Source of the DNA: Capnocytophaga catalasegens
GTDB lineage: Bacteria > Bacteroidota > Bacteroidia > Flavobacteriales > Flavobacteriaceae
Assembly (NCBI RefSeq): GCF_026005215.1
Contig: NZ_BPMA01000002.1
Location: forward strand, 62,001 to 126,000
Length of the DNA: 64,000 nt
Reading direction: 5' to 3'
Shown: positions 25,595 through 30,526 of the stretch, in pieces
Position numbering within the stretch: the stretch's first letter is position 1
Layout of the letters: each line of letters opens with the position of its first letter
Translations under genes and position numbers: made by a program
The notes under the pieces: generated by a model
Database searches by the model: none
Told to the model about the DNA's origin: nothing
What the model saw: only the letters and a program-made list of their open reading frames with translations

Positions 25595-26134
25595 TCAGAT
25601 ATTTTGTTCTGAAAAAGGAATTTCTTCTATATTTTCTTTTTTTTCTTCTTGATTTTCTTTCAAAAGAAAAATTTGTGAATACATCAAATTGCTTAGCTTA
25701 GTTACCGGCATAAACAATACTGATTTTTGTGTATATTCCTCAGGAATAATCGGAATATAACCTCGTGTTAGAAATTGCAATGAAGTTCCTACAATTAGCG
25801 TCCATTTAAGCAAGCCGAAAATACCTCCAAAAAATCGATTGACAAATCCTAATGAGGCACCTTCGATTATTTTGGTAAGAATTTTGCTCAAAATACCAAC
25901 CAAAATCATTATTGTTAAAAGCGTAAAAGCAAAAGCTGTTATTTTGATAGTTTGTTTATCCCAATCAAAATTTTGGGTCATATAATCTGAAACATAAAAC
26001 GAGAAGTAAATAGCTCCATAAATACCTAAAACAACTGCCAAAAGTGCCGAAGCTTCTAAAATAAGACCTTTCCAAAGTCCTCTAAAAAAACCTATTGCCA
26101 AAATTATTGCCAAAATAACATCAATTGTATTCAT
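25595..26134 (-). CDS. CvpA family membrane protein
   Basis: 179 residues from MNTIDVILAII. Four hydrophobic helices; FFRGLWKGLILEASALL and GFVNRFFGGIFGLLKW match the CvpA family (colicin V production, also linked to envelope stress tolerance). The C-terminal tail is Glu/Lys-rich. An in-frame codon at 26161 precedes the -7 element TATCTTTG (26151-26158), so the ATG at 26134 is used. It sits next to the bacteriocin-like operon on the same strand but has its own promoter, so I do not assign it to that operon. Confidence 0.87.
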   Translation of the reverse strand: MNTIDVILAIILAIGFFRGLWKGLILEASALLAVVLGIYGAIYFSFYVSDYMTQNFDWDKQTIKITAFAFTLLTIMILVGILSKILTKIIEGASLGFVNRFFGGIFGLLKWTLIVGTSLQFLTRGYIPIIPEEYTQKSVLFMPVTKLSNLMYSQIFLLKENQEEKKENIEEIPFSEQNI

Positions 26135-26229
26135 TTTTACAAAATTTCGGCAAAGATACAAATTTATTAGGTCTCGTAGTATGTTTTTAGTAGGAAAAAA
26201 GTTAATTGAAATATAAATAATTTAAAGAA

Positions 26230-28377
26230 TTATTTTTTCCAATATTGACTATAAAAATTAGAAGTTTTTAAAAGATTGGAAGGAGTATCGTTATACGTAA
26301 TTGTATTTTCTAAAATACAAATATTATCTGCTATTTGCGAAAGCAAATGCAACCGATGAGAGATAAATAGTATAATGCAATGGGGTTTTATCTTTTTTAA
26401 AAGCTCTATTGCAAACTTTTCTGTATTCCTGTCCATTGCTGAAGTAGCCTCATCTAACAACAGAAATTGAGGTTTTTTATACAATGCTCGTGCCAAAGCT
26501 ATGAGTTGTTTTTGCCCACCCGAAAGATTGATACCTTCTTCTCCCAAAAGTGTAGCTATTCCCTGCGGAAATTGATTAAAATACGTATCAAAACCATATT
26601 TTTGCAAAAACAAATAAAATTCTTCTTCCGACAAAGATTTATCTCCTAAAAGAATATTATCAACTACATTTCCGTTAAAAATAGTTACTTCTTGCGGAAT
26701 AACACCTATCATATTTCGATAGCTTTGTAGCGAAATGGTTTCGATATTACGATTATTTACTTTAATAACTCCTTTTTCGGGAGTATAAAACTGCTGTAAT
26801 AATTGCCCAAAAGTACTTTTCCCACAGCCACTCTCTCCAATAAGAGCTGTTATTTGTCCTTTTTTTAGTGTTAAATTTACATCAGAGAATAATTCTTTAC
26901 GTCCTGCAAAACGAAATGACAAATTTTCAACAGAAATTGTATCTATTTTTTTAATATCTTCGCCTGCTACTTTCTCGCAAGGAACGGAAGCAAATTCATA
27001 CATTCGTGAAAAAGCTATTTTGGCTTCATTGATAGGAATCGTGATAAGTGCCAAATTGGCAACGGACGGAAGCAACGACCCTGAAATTCCTAAAATAGCC
27101 ATCATAGCTCCTAATTGTAGCTGGTTATCAAACACTTGGAATGACGCATAAAACAAGGTAACGACCAAAAATACAATACTCGCAACACCCGATTGCCACG
27201 AGAGTTTTAGCCCAAGTATTCCTAAATTAAAGGATTTTTGTTGTAAAAAACTGAAAATATGAGTGTTATTCTGCGCAAAAAATGCCTGTCTATTATTATT
27301 TTTTATCGTTTCAATTCCTTGCATACTCGTAATATAGTTGCTCTCAACAAGGGCATAGTTTTGCATTATTTCTCTTTGGGCTTTGATAAGTGATTGATTG
27401 CTTCGATATACGATGAAAAAATAAATAGGCACACTCAAAAGTGTGATTACTCCTATCTGCCAAGAGTAAAAAAATAAGAAAATTAAAGATACAATCGTTA
27501 CCAAAACGTCAATCACCAAGCTATTAACCAACTGGTTAATTACCCGCTGAATACGTTGTGTATCATTGAGCCGAGCTACTAATTCTCCTATTTTTCGAGT
27601 ATCAAAAAAAGGTTTGGGCAAAGATAATAATCTGGTAAAAAAATTGGTATTTATCCGAATATTAAAATCTTTGGCTTGTTTGAGTAAAAAATAACTTCGT
27701 AGCAAACTCAATCCTACGCGTGCCAAAAGCAATAAAGTAAGTAAAACAATGCCTACAACCAATTTATTTTTGTTGTGTGAGGGCAATATATCATCTATCA
27801 ATTTTTGTGAAAACACCATCATTGCCATTGCCAAAACAGCCACTAATATCCCTATAATCGTACTCGAGATCAATAACTTATAATCATCTTTAAGCAACGA
27901 AAGAAACCACTGACGTTGCCGGATTTTATCGTCTTTATCCAATACAAAATCAGCATTGGGTTCAAGCGTAAGACACGAGTGAGAAATCCATATTTTTTCT
28001 AATTCTTCAACAGAAAGTTCATATATTCCTTGGGCTGGGTCGCCTATTATAAACTTTTTGTTTTCATAACCGAAACACACCACGTAGTGTTGAAGTTTTT
28101 CTTCTAAAACAACGTGCAGAATAGTAGGACTTGGGTGATTGATAAGTGACTGAATATCAGCCTCACAGCCTTCCGCTGTAAAACCCACTTTATTGGCTGC
28201 TTGATACAAACCCAAAAGTGTTGTCCCTTGTCGCGTAGTTCCGCTATATTCACGTAGTTTTTCAAGAGATTGATTTCCGCCATAGTAGCGTATAAGCGAT
28301 AACAGACATGCTACGCCACAATCGTTCTGGTCGTGTTGTAATACGACCGATTTTTTGATGCGTTTTTTATCAAACAT
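26230..28377 (-). CDS. C39-peptidase-containing ABC exporter (PCAT) for double-glycine peptides
   Basis: 715 residues. The N-terminal C39 peptidase domain has Gln14, catalytic Cys20 (NDCGVAC), His97 (QHYVV) and Asp113 (GDPA), a complete catalytic set. A six-helix ABC transmembrane domain (about 165-440) follows, then a nucleotide-binding domain with GESGCGKST, LSGGQKQ and DEATSAMD. PCATs cut leaders after Gly-Gly and export the mature peptide. It is the last gene of an operon that starts with two Gly-Gly leader precursors, which are its evident substrates. No HlyD-type adaptor or TolC-like channel is encoded nearby, so passage across the outer membrane is unexplained. Confidence 0.95.
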   Translation of the reverse strand: MFDKKRIKKSVVLQHDQNDCGVACLLSLIRYYGGNQSLEKLREYSGTTRQGTTLLGLYQAANKVGFTAEGCEADIQSLINHPSPTILHVVLEEKLQHYVVCFGYENKKFIIGDPAQGIYELSVEELEKIWISHSCLTLEPNADFVLDKDDKIRQRQWFLSLLKDDYKLLISSTIIGILVAVLAMAMMVFSQKLIDDILPSHNKNKLVVGIVLLTLLLLARVGLSLLRSYFLLKQAKDFNIRINTNFFTRLLSLPKPFFDTRKIGELVARLNDTQRIQRVINQLVNSLVIDVLVTIVSLIFLFFYSWQIGVITLLSVPIYFFIVYRSNQSLIKAQREIMQNYALVESNYITSMQGIETIKNNNRQAFFAQNNTHIFSFLQQKSFNLGILGLKLSWQSGVASIVFLVVTLFYASFQVFDNQLQLGAMMAILGISGSLLPSVANLALITIPINEAKIAFSRMYEFASVPCEKVAGEDIKKIDTISVENLSFRFAGRKELFSDVNLTLKKGQITALIGESGCGKSTFGQLLQQFYTPEKGVIKVNNRNIETISLQSYRNMIGVIPQEVTIFNGNVVDNILLGDKSLSEEEFYLFLQKYGFDTYFNQFPQGIATLLGEEGINLSGGQKQLIALARALYKKPQFLLLDEATSAMDRNTEKFAIELLKKIKPHCIILFISHRLHLLSQIADNICILENTITYNDTPSNLLKTSNFYSQYWKK

Positions 28378-28383
28378 ACTATT

Positions 28384-28899
28384 TTACAGGTATTTTAAGA
28401 TGGTTTTGGCACGTGTTTGCCCTTTGTGCTGAAATACTAACTGATGTGTTGAATTATATACAAATAAAGAAGGTATATGATTAGAATCAAATATGGTAGC
28501 AAACTTGTTCAAACTATCTTGTAGAAAAATAACATTAGAAACCTTATCCAATCCTTGGTTTTGAGCAAATTTACGAATTTTATAACTTTCCTCTGTTGAA
28601 ACAAAAATAAGTTGGGTATTTTTAAACTCACTTATATGTTCTTTTATATCTTGGGTTTCGTACCAGCAATAACTACATTCTGTATTGAAGTAGAGAAATA
28701 CAACCGAAGTATTTTGAGTAATATTTTTGTTTGTAAAAGGCTTTCCGTCTGTTTGAGCAAAAGAAAATTTGGGTAATGAAACAATATGCCGAGCAAGTAC
28801 CTTTTTTTGTTCTATTTTCTGATAGATATAATATCCACCTATCATAACGAAAATAACAATACTTACAAGCAATATTTTCTTAATGATTTGTTTAGCCAT
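28384..28899 (-). CDS. Membrane-anchored thioredoxin-like (TlpA/redoxin) protein
   Basis: 171 residues with an uncleaved N-terminal helix (8-25) placing the domain in the periplasm. The redox motif Cys75-Ser-Tyr-Cys78 is in FNTECSYCW and the cis-proline is Pro143 in IPSLFVY, so it should be active as a thiol-disulfide exchanger. CSYC is not the DsbA (CPHC) or typical TlpA motif. The gene lies 6 bases upstream of the exporter and inside the peptide operon. Both precursor peptides carry two cysteines, so forming or proofreading their disulfide is the likely job (inference). A generic role in exporter maintenance cannot be excluded. Confidence 0.85.
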   Translation of the reverse strand: MAKQIIKKILLVSIVIFVMIGGYYIYQKIEQKKVLARHIVSLPKFSFAQTDGKPFTNKNITQNTSVVFLYFNTECSYCWYETQDIKEHISEFKNTQLIFVSTEESYKIRKFAQNQGLDKVSNVIFLQDSLNKFATIFDSNHIPSLFVYNSTHQLVFQHKGQTRAKTILKYL

Positions 28900-28908
28900 C
28901 TTTACTTT

Positions 28909-29547
28909 TTATGAATAATTAAGTGTGAAAAACATTACCACAACTACCCACAAAAGCAATAAAACTCCGTAACTTGACGCTACAAAATAAAACCGCTCCT
29001 TAAAACTAATTTTCAGTACCTTGCCCAGCAAATAGGTCAGCAATAGCCAATAACCTACCTCAAAAAGATTGGCTAACTGCAACGGATATACGTACCATTG
29101 CGCTACTTGCTTATAGTCTGTTAGGTTAAGAAGCGATAAGGGGTAGAAAAATTGTATATCTTCAAGTGTGTGTTGAGGTTGAAAGAAATAAAACCATATT
29201 ATTTTGCATACAGGTACAAGCAAAAAGATGATTTCTGCCTCTGCAACAATAACAAAAAGCCTCTTGTACGGCACTTGGCGGTCAGTAAGCATACAAGCTA
29301 TACTAAGAACTAATGCCGTTATACTCATTTTGATAAGAAGCAAAAACGGAATAAACCCATACCCTACCCATTGCCATTTTTGTTGCGCGTTTAAGAGATT
29401 TTCTACCTGTGTAGCTGTTAATTGCTCTGAAAGCGAATTTGCCAAAAGCGACCTTATATTTAGAATATCTTGTACCAAATATGCCAAAAAAGCATTTAAC
29501 AACAAAAGCGAACAAATATAAAGCCTATTAAGGGTTTTATCTGACAT
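28909..29547 (-). CDS. Multi-pass membrane protein of the peptide operon, unknown family
   Basis: 212 residues with about five hydrophobic segments (roughly 8-26, 62-84, 98-118, 150-172, 185-210). No catalytic motif, signal peptide or Cys-rich site. It lies 15 bases after the 70-residue membrane protein gene and 9 bases before the thioredoxin-like gene. A role in immunity, or as an export accessory, is suggested by position only. I do not recognise the family. Confidence 0.7.
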   Translation of the reverse strand: MSDKTLNRLYICSLLLLNAFLAYLVQDILNIRSLLANSLSEQLTATQVENLLNAQQKWQWVGYGFIPFLLLIKMSITALVLSIACMLTDRQVPYKRLFVIVAEAEIIFLLVPVCKIIWFYFFQPQHTLEDIQFFYPLSLLNLTDYKQVAQWYVYPLQLANLFEVGYWLLLTYLLGKVLKISFKERFYFVASSYGVLLLLWVVVVMFFTLNYS

Positions 29548-29562
29548 TTACTACCGTATTTT

Positions 29563-29775
29563 CTAATGAGAAATTTCTTTTGTTTTACGTTCTTTTTCTA
29601 TTTTTTTCAATTTGTTTTGCTTAGTTATATAAGCTATCATATAAATAAAAAAGAAAAATTTGTTTAAACTCGGGTCTATTTTGAATATGATATTTATTAA
29701 CCATAATATCAAAATAATAAAACACTCTACATATCTTATAATATAGGTTTTTACAGTAGATAATATTTGTTTCAT
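29563..29775 (-). CDS. Small two-helix membrane protein B, candidate immunity protein
   Basis: 70 residues: two hydrophobic helices (about 15-34 and 38-52) and a Lys/Glu-rich C-terminal tail. It aligns with the 65-residue protein encoded just upstream: both open with MK-x-ILxxVKxY, share a FIxLLxL helix, then an acidic residue-Pro-x-Leu-Asn turn (KIDPSLN here, GLEPMLN there) and an FFI helix ending in TK. The pair therefore looks like a gene duplication. Two related small membrane proteins beside two related precursor peptides suggest one immunity protein per peptide (inference). Confidence 0.65.
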   Translation of the reverse strand: MKQILSTVKTYIIRYVECFIILILWLINIIFKIDPSLNKFFFFIYMIAYITKQNKLKKIEKERKTKEISH

Positions 29776-29791
29776 AATAAAAAATTGTTTT

Positions 29792-29989
29792 TTAATTATA
29801 CATATTTTTCTTTTTAGGAAAATTTCTTATTATTCCATATTTTGTAAAAAACAAAATAAAGAGAATAATAAAAAACAACGGGCGATTAAGCATAGGTTCT
29901 AAGCCTGAAATATAATTAAGCCCCAACAAAGCGATAAACACCAATAACACGGCATATCGTTTTACCATTTGTAAAATTTTTTCTTTCAT
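29792..29989 (-). CDS. Small two-helix membrane protein A, candidate immunity protein
   Basis: 65 residues, two hydrophobic helices (about 12-30 and 38-55) separated by GLEPMLNRP, and a basic C-terminus. It is a paralogue of the 70-residue protein 16 bases downstream (see that entry). It is the first gene after the precursor pair, 67 bases beyond the second precursor, across the hairpin at 30007-30040. Small, basic, two-helix membrane proteins directly behind bacteriocin genes are often immunity proteins; no family match is claimed. Confidence 0.65.
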   Translation of the reverse strand: MKEKILQMVKRYAVLLVFIALLGLNYISGLEPMLNRPLFFIILFILFFTKYGIIRNFPKKKNMYN

Positions 29990-30006
29990 AATATTTTTAT
30001 ATTTGT

Positions 30007-30040
30007 AAGAGACTGACTGAAAAAGTTTGGTCAGTCTCTT
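30007..30040 (-). promoter_or_regulatory. Stem-loop between precursor genes and the rest of the operon
   Basis: Perfect 11-base stem AAGAGACTGAC / GTCAGTCTCTT with a 12-base loop and no T run behind it on either strand. The position right after the precursor genes suggests an RNA stability element or partial terminator that would keep precursor mRNA more abundant than the downstream genes. Confidence 0.65.
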
Positions 30041-30056
30041 GGTCTTTCAAAAGTAA

Positions 30057-30206
30057 TTAGCTATTCCAACATTCAGCTATTTCTTTTCTAAAAATAGAAG
30101 CTATAATACCTGTATGAGTTAGCAACGCTGCTCCTAACAAAGCACATCCACCAGGAGAGATTCCCCCAATAATAGTTGCTTGCTGTTCAAAATTCAATTT
30201 TTTCAT
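30057..30206 (-). CDS. Double-glycine leader peptide precursor 2 (bacteriocin-like)
   Basis: 49 residues, ATG at 30206-30204. Leader MKKLNFEQQATIIGG (1-15) ends in Gly-Gly, the cleavage signal for C39 exporters; the expected mature peptide has 34 residues. It is hydrophobic and Gly/Ala-rich and contains two cysteines, at mature positions 6 (GGCALLGA) and 31 (IAECWNS). The first precursor also has Cys at mature position 6 followed by xLLGA and a C-terminal I-x-E-C, so the two are paralogues. Cleavage is predicted, not shown. No lantibiotic, radical-SAM or cyclodehydratase enzyme is encoded nearby, so a disulfide rather than other modification is likely. Confidence 0.85.
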   Translation of the reverse strand: MKKLNFEQQATIIGGISPGGCALLGAALLTHTGIIASIFRKEIAECWNS

Positions 30207-30236
30207 TATTCAAATTTTTAAAAGTTAAACAATTTT

Positions 30237-30392
30237 TTAAGCACATTCTATGATAGTAGCAGTAAGCACTCCAACTCCTGTCGATGGTAAAATAGCAAGA
30301 GATAGAGCAGATAAAGCTCCCAGCAATAAACATTCTCTCCCTTTACCTCCCCCTTGGATTTTTTCCATTTGATTTAAAGTAATCTTTTTCAT
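30237..30392 (-). CDS. Double-glycine leader peptide precursor 1 (bacteriocin-like)
   Basis: 51 residues, ATG at 30392-30390, the first gene of the operon. Leader MKKITLNQMEKIQGG (1-15) is a textbook Gly-Gly leader with the L-x-x-Met-x-x-Ile spacing. The mature peptide (36 residues) is GKGREC then LLLGAL, a long Ala/Leu/Gly/Val helix-prone stretch and a final IIECA. Cys at mature positions 6 and 35 could form a disulfide closing most of the peptide. The hydrophobic body suggests a membrane-active bacteriocin; a signalling peptide is the alternative. Confidence 0.88.
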   Translation of the reverse strand: MKKITLNQMEKIQGGGKGRECLLLGALSALSLAILPSTGVGVLTATIIECA

Positions 30393-30435
30393 CTTTAAAA
30401 AATTTTAAATTGTACATTATTTTATTCATTTTAGA

Positions 30436-30513
30436 AAAGTATCCACAAACGTCGACTTTTTTTGCTCCTCTTCGCTAAAATGATTTTCGTACTGCGAAGT
30501 TATAGTGTTTTTT
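30436..30513 (-). repeat. Promoter-leader repeat, copy 1 (bacteriocin operon)
   Basis: About 78 bases, nearly identical in order to 31198-31274, containing the -7 element and about 60 bases of 5' leader, with the core CAAACGTCGACTTTTTT. The copies differ at about one base in six with one or two single-base indels. Outside the block the two upstream regions are unrelated. Confidence 0.85.
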
Positions 30514-30526
30514 TTTTTTTTGCAAA
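30495..30526 (-). promoter_or_regulatory. Promoter of the bacteriocin-like operon
   Basis: Minus strand: TTTG at 30523-30526, a 20-base spacer made mostly of a 13-A run, then TAACTTCG (one mismatch to TAnnTTTG) at 30495-30502. The A-tract spacer may bend DNA. The start near 30488 leaves a leader of about 95 bases before precursor 1. Confidence 0.75.

Follow-up and report, generated by a model that had tools for sequence, protein, structure and literature searches.

A 64,000-nucleotide stretch of the genome of Capnocytophaga catalasegens (contig NZ_BPMA01000002.1, positions 62,001 to 126,000), hereafter the window and part of contig 2 of a 2.9-Mb assembly, carries on its minus strand, from position 30392 down to 26230, a compact operon of seven genes which a preliminary description had read as an undescribed two-peptide bacteriocin system (Table 1). 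All seven open reading frames (ORFs) were confirmed, each with an ATG start, and both their sizes and the intergenic gaps of 30, 67, 16, 15, 9 and 6 bases, in operon order, are as first described (6-67 bases). Judged by its sequence, the operon is real and intact. It encodes two short peptide precursors (A and B), two small membrane proteins (likewise A and B), a protein with five predicted transmembrane segments (five-TM protein), a thioredoxin-like protein and an ABC exporter with a C39 peptidase domain.

Table 1. Features of the operon in order of transcription, with window coordinates (aa, amino acids)
Feature	Position	Strand	Description and basis
Candidate promoter TTTG-N20-TAACTTCG	30495..30526	-	Bacteroidota -33/-7 style, one mismatch; pattern search (weak for a single site)
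Peptide A precursor, 51 aa	30237..30392	-	15-aa Gly-Gly leader, 36-aa mature part, Cys6 and Cys35; leader profile
Peptide B precursor, 49 aa	30057..30206	-	15-aa Gly-Gly leader, 34-aa mature part, Cys6 and Cys31; paralogue of A
RNA hairpin, 11 bp, no U run after it	30007..30040	-	Folding compared with shuffles
Small membrane protein A, 65 aa	29792..29989	-	Two hydrophobic segments, basic tail; putative immunity protein
Small membrane protein B, 70 aa	29563..29775	-	Paralogue of small membrane protein A; putative immunity protein
Five-TM protein, 212 aa	28909..29547	-	Homologue of the TM protein at survey locus L139 (bacteroidetocin gene order)
Thioredoxin-like protein, 171 aa	28384..28899	-	AhpC-TSA/Redoxin, N-terminal hydrophobic segment, CSYC; putative disulfide maker
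C39-peptidase ABC exporter, 715 aa	26230..28377	-	Family matches and motifs; predicted Gly-Gly cleavage and peptide export

The precursor of peptide A scored 25.2 bits against a leader profile built from relatives only, with the window excluded, compared with 10.5 bits for the best short ORF in 50 dinucleotide-shuffled windows. Peptides A and B are, on the evidence of their alignment, paralogues: the score of the full-length pair was reached by none of 2000 shuffles, that of the leaders by 1 of 2000 and that of the mature parts by 6 of 2000. Both mature parts are hydrophobic and carry no net charge, and their two cysteines lie 29 (A) and 25 (B) residues apart. A profile of 19 precursor sequences retrieved 209 proteins at E <= 0.01. 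Among the 120 matches listed, which include the window's own peptide, a usable GG, GA or GS is present in 119 and follows exactly 15 residues in 112; two cysteines follow it in 97, three in 14 and one, four or five in 8, shares that are biased because the precursor and leader profiles were seeded with two-cysteine precursors, mostly with 15-residue leaders and in some cases from the loci surveyed below. In the two-cysteine relatives, the first cysteine occupies median position 5 and the last is, at the median, fourth from the end. Within the limit set by this seeding, the precursor family is one of peptides with a single cysteine near each end.

The thioredoxin-like protein matches AhpC-TSA (5e-11) and Redoxin (2.3e-7), both over cut-off, and a CxxC motif is present in all 21 of its listed relatives. 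The exporter, complete as first described, contains the catalytic and nucleotide-binding motifs (DCGVAC, HYVV, GDP, Walker A, LSGGQ and LLLDE) and matches Peptidase_C39, ABC_membrane and ABC_tran over cut-off. Its nearest solved sequence is 4ry2, an ‘ABC-type bacteriocin transporter’ (E 3.6e-107), and ComA is among the other near ones. In exporters of this family, coupling of Gly-Gly cleavage to ABC export is well established. The 212-aa protein, previously called a five-helix protein, is modelled with five long helices and some short ones (mean pLDDT 91.5), and its similarity to Yip1 is far under cut-off. Searches with this protein gave homologues in 3 of the 20 genomes from the genus, in 13 of the 397 from the family (three being weak), in 12 of the 398 from a different family, in 3 of 123 in one further set and in 17 of the 393 from the order to which genome G744 belongs (probably Bacteroidales, because of Mfa2 matches), and a profile search yielded homologues, remote paralogues included, in 27 of 395 genomes of the phylum; these counts include the own genome where it was searched.

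This combination of genes corresponds to that of the bacteroidetocins, class IIf bacteriocins described by Coyne et al. 2019 (PMC6671954). A bacteroidetocin region contains genes for a five-TM protein, for a Gly-Gly peptide whose leader has 15-16 residues and whose mature part has at least two cysteines, for a C39-ABC exporter and, in most regions, for a thiol oxidoreductase. In E. coli these four genes are enough for toxin activity; in Bacteroides, activity is weakened when the TM, thiol or peptide gene is deleted, and the TM and thiol genes each give no protection. Every one of the published gene-content features is found in the window: leaders of 15 residues, two cysteines in each mature peptide, five long modelled helices in the 212-aa protein, a thioredoxin-like protein with CSYC that corresponds to the thiol oxidoreductase, and a C39-ABC exporter (PMC6671954). 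As to size, mature peptide A falls inside the published range of 35-50 aa and mature peptide B just below it. A further link comes from locus L139, in the order of G744, where a five-TM gene is followed by genes for a precursor (leader of 15 aa, mature part of 45 aa with four cysteines), a CxxC protein and a C39-ABC exporter. The gene order and features of this locus are those published for bacteroidetocins (PMC6671954), and the TM protein encoded there is matched at 1e-19 by the profile of the window's five-TM family.

The likeness to bacteroidetocins A-D, which extends to the adjacency of the five-TM protein, the peptide with its 15-residue Gly-Gly leader and paired cysteines, the thiol oxidoreductase and the C39-ABC exporter, is accompanied by several differences (PMC6671954). 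Bacteroidetocin loci encode one peptide, whereas the window encodes two; bacteroidetocins A and B have four cysteines, whereas the window peptides have two, near both ends; and the mature parts of bacteroidetocins A and B, with 42 aa and charges of +2 and +6, contrast with the shorter, uncharged and hydrophobic window peptides. The TM gene comes first in the published loci, whereas in the window the peptide genes come first and the five-TM gene lies downstream. Finally, the window has two extra small membrane proteins, whereas Coyne et al. report self-inhibition and no immunity gene. That the system is undescribed is not supported, its gene set having been published in 2019 as that of the bacteroidetocins. 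The other part of the preliminary claim, that the operon is for a bacteriocin and includes a C39 exporter and an enzyme for the disulfides, is well supported by the likeness to bacteroidetocin loci, whose four genes make an antibacterial peptide, as mutation and transfer to E. coli demonstrated (PMC6671954). What sets the operon apart from the described four-gene loci is the paralogous pair of 65- and 70-residue two-helix proteins; the core gene set was already known.

Collectively, we consider it probable, at roughly 0.7, that the operon is built on the bacteroidetocin gene set, that its paralogous two-cysteine peptides are cut and exported by the C39-ABC exporter, likely closed by a disulfide and likely to kill related Bacteroidota, and that the pair of small membrane proteins likely protects the producer. 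The precursors would be made in the cell, where the C39 domain would remove the leader behind the Gly-Gly as the mature peptide is exported by the ABC part. Once in the periplasm, the peptide would have its single disulfide closed by the anchored CxxC protein, so that most of it would form a ring. The five-TM protein might act as a membrane helper of maturation or of release of the active toxin, a role suggested by Bacteroides genetics, in which its counterpart is needed for full activity (PMC6671954). The peptides would kill relatives by membrane action, presumably at a target in the inner membrane because immunity-type membrane proteins accompany them; an alternative target may be BamA, on which bacteroidetocin A acts (Matano et al. 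2021, PMC8546649). The two small two-helix membrane proteins would protect the producer.

The distribution of the gene set was surveyed by script in 57 loci, the window included, all of which were chosen for holding a five-TM homologue. A core cassette, defined as a five-TM homologue with a CxxC thioredoxin-like protein and a C39-ABC exporter, is present in 35 of the 57 loci and is accompanied by a recognised Gly-Gly peptide in 28 of these 35; more precisely, there is one such peptide in 17 cores, two in 10, four in 1 and none in 7. The 41 core peptides, recognised with a seed-biased profile, contain two cysteines in 36 cases, four in 3, three in 1 and one in 1. The same cassette occurs in other Flavobacteriaceae and in more distant Bacteroidota, including a plasmid of Flammeovirga. 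The 22 non-core loci comprise 12 remote homologues at which neither a peptide nor a CxxC gene was recognised (L078-L087, L140 and L142), with a C39-like neighbour at L080 and L081, and 10 loci that are partial, broken, cut off or differently arranged. In the five-TM tree, the loci whose mature peptides start with KFWG (four cysteines at L088 and L139, two at L136) form a weakly supported cluster (89/34), which falls outside the well-supported clade of 14 loci that contains the window (100/99).

These peptide numbers bear on the ‘two-peptide’ part of the preliminary description, which, in the class IIb sense, they do not establish. In a true class IIb bacteriocin, peptides A and B would be active only together and the small membrane proteins would be their immunity. 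Indeed, A and B are adjacent, paralogous and of near equal length within one operon, two peptides are recognised in 10 of the 35 cores, and at three loci (L026, L032 and L005) a single small membrane ORF lies between a pair of peptides and the five-TM gene. Of 19 relatives of the window peptides, 3 match Bacteriocin_IIc (best 1.8e-5) and 2 match the lactobin A/cerein 7B model (best 0.0011). However, 17 of the 35 cores have one recognised peptide and one core has four, and in the family scans the window peptides fall below the cut-off of every class IIb model: the best match of peptide A is NF038034, with 15.1 bits against a cut-off of 37, and peptide B has no family match at E <= 1. GxxxG motifs are typical of class IIb two-peptide bacteriocins, but no strict GxxxG is present in mature A or B, which contain looser small-xxx-small patterns only. 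The two-peptide claim is unproven because A and B are paralogues and the number of peptides varies among cores; given two peptides and two paralogous small proteins, a duplicated peptide-immunity pair fits at least as well. We regard a class IIb system as unlikely, though still deserving consideration.

Like the two peptides, small membrane proteins A and B are paralogues of each other, with none of 2000 shuffles reaching their score. Both have counterparts, 92% and 62% identical, on a related metagenome contig. A five-TM homologue 95% identical to that of the window probably lies on the same contig, since the longest contig recorded for it has the same length (9051). Among the 35 core cassettes, small membrane ORFs (ATG start, 45-110 aa, a hydrophobic segment and no overlap with core genes) were found on the coding strand in 15, compared with 2 in antisense orientation, and ABC-2-type exporters adjoin 11 cores (called by script and corrected by hand). 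When mapped onto the five-TM tree, the small-protein label requires 7 changes (12.6 in shuffles) and the ABC-2 label 8 (11.9 in shuffles), with 0 of 500 shuffles as low in either case, a clustering that can arise from relatedness alone; the small-protein type is found mostly within the flavobacterial clade. The small membrane ORFs and ABC-2 exporters look like exchangeable self-protection, absent from the published loci. By these features the 65/70-aa pair are likely self-protection genes, and the immunity role first claimed for them is plausible.

The roles might also be reversed, with the five-TM protein providing immunity and the small proteins acting as maturation partners. Consistent with such a reversal, the five-TM gene is kept beside peptides at L028 and L145, where no CxxC gene or intact C39 exporter was found nearby, and the same holds for L034, which lies close to a contig end. 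However, in Bacteroides the toxin is fully active only with the counterpart of this protein, which does not protect when expressed in trans (PMC6671954), and it is the small proteins that vary in sequence and presence, as immunity proteins do. We consider the reversal improbable, and for the 212-aa protein the same Bacteroides data argue against an immunity role. At L028 (genome G090), the peptide, ABC-2 exporter genes and five-TM protein are present, and the C39 exporter is a short remnant. The remote five-TM homologues at L078, L079, L082 and L084 are encoded upstream of a many-helix membrane protein of ~980-1000 aa, with no C39 exporter found near them; because of this setting, the five-TM family may have a second, housekeeping use.

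Family scans covered the seven genes, a 144-aa upstream gene and five further neighbours, namely those for a POT transporter, a DPP-IV-like peptidase, a Colicin_V-production-like protein, a glycogen synthase/phosphorylase and a 291-aa protein without a family. Within this set there is no modification enzyme, in agreement with the preliminary description. Since C39 exporters also carry Gly-Gly pheromones, an established property of this group, and ComA is among the nearest solved sequences of the window's exporter, the peptides could conceivably be exported signals rather than toxins. Yet no sensor or regulator family was found in the seven genes, the 144-aa upstream gene or the scanned near neighbours; small membrane ORFs of self-protection type or ABC-2 exporters stand beside many cassettes; and the same kinds of genes make toxins in Bacteroides (PMC6671954). 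A signalling function thus appears very improbable.

Several points weigh against the interpretation of the operon as a self-protected relative of the bacteroidetocins. Peptide B scored 7.8 bits against the leader profile, within the range of the shuffled windows, so that its leader alone is not beyond chance; peptide B is supported by its gene position and its similarity to peptide A. Its mature part, with 34 aa, is one residue below the published range of 35-50 (PMC6671954). Seven of the 35 cores have no peptide recognised by the script. The small membrane proteins match no family over cut-off in the family scans and their relatives are few (3 proteins, the window's own included), and both a small membrane ORF and an ABC-2 exporter are missing from 11 of the 35 cores, including L139. 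Because the published bacteroidetocin producers inhibit themselves (PMC6671954), immunity is not a rule in this family. Orthology with the named Bacteroides genes (for the TM protein, EH213_01845 or its B. vulgatus counterpart) is proposed from a match to their published description and from the genomes surveyed. Moreover, we infer cleavage, oxidation, killing, the inner-membrane target, immunity and the role of the five-TM protein alike.

A broader interpretation, which we offer tentatively and with some doubt, is that the machinery of the bacteroidetocins serves the whole phylum as a platform for exchangeable peptides, and that the window represents its largest and hardly studied branch, in which hydrophobic peptides closed by one end-to-end disulfide would act on the inner membrane rather than on BamA and protection would be lineage-specific, by small two-helix proteins or ABC-2 exporters. 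If true, bacteroidetocins would make up a small part of a far larger family of bacteriocins with one disulfide, spread across Bacteroidota, and the small membrane proteins would be the source of the self-protection that was sought but not found in bacteroidetocin loci (PMC6671954). Two questions could then be put to the test: the part that the five-TM protein plays in maturation, and whether the membrane attacked differs among peptides that share a machinery.

Comparison with other bacteriocin classes shows which features are shared. The class IIb and lactobin A/cerein 7B systems (TIGR03949, PF10439) have in common with the window the Gly-Gly leader, a pair of small hydrophobic peptides, a C39 exporter and small membrane proteins, but the lactobin A/cerein 7B models are matched by some relatives of the window peptides and not by the window peptides themselves, and the window adds a cysteine near each end, a dedicated thioredoxin-like protein, a five-TM protein and a Gram-negative host. 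Pediocin-like class IIa operons encode a peptide, an immunity protein, a PedC-type thiol-disulfide accessory protein and a C39 exporter, the same four functions as proposed for the window operon. In contrast to these operons, the YGNGV N-terminal motif is absent from peptides A and B, the thioredoxin-like protein matches AhpC-TSA/Redoxin, and the five-TM protein is extra. With the colicin V-type class II microcins the window shares a Gly-Gly peptide and a C39-ABC exporter in a Gram-negative bacterium, whereas no HlyD-like or TolC-like gene is present in the operon, which encodes no outer-membrane route.

The Colicin_V-production-like gene (PF02674, 1.2e-25) lies at 25595-26161 on the same strand, 68 bases past the operon. 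It is not a mark of a microcin locus, because it is present in 20 of 20 genomes of the genus, and it is probably a housekeeping neighbour. Elsewhere in the same genome, at L035 (G000:C28:80000-94164), a second C39 exporter lies in two ORFs (515 and 195 aa) and is adjoined by an HlyD-like gene; no precursor of the present type is listed near this locus.

Upstream of the operon, the consensus-type promoter of the preliminary description, evaluated here with the Bacteroidota -33/-7 consensus, does exist as a site, but the pattern is too frequent for it to carry weight. The search pattern, which had been relaxed to match this very site, has 17 occurrences in the window where 9.5 would be expected, and 0 of 100 shuffles reached 17; with so many occurrences, the single site counts for little. 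Its spacer contains a run of 14 A (30508-30521); A runs can vary in length, and this one could switch operon expression. Between the peptide genes and the remaining genes of the operon, the 81-base stretch 29985-30065, which includes the hairpin, folds with -15.5 kcal/mol (z -3.3), and 0 of 200 shuffles were equally stable. At this position the hairpin would favour the peptide mRNA.

In another genome of the same genus (L024, G019:C1:1278000-1291000), the cassette's five-TM gene is interrupted by a stretch holding a 264-aa ORF on the opposite strand, which from its sequence gives the impression of being transposase-like. The Flammeovirga cassette (L067) is borne by the F. pectinis plasmid NZ_CP034564.1, with transposase genes upstream and a LanC-family gene downstream. 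At L131 (G1569:C110:86000-102000), units of five-TM protein, CxxC protein and Gly-Gly peptide are repeated, and the peptides of this locus vary in sequence and cysteine number.

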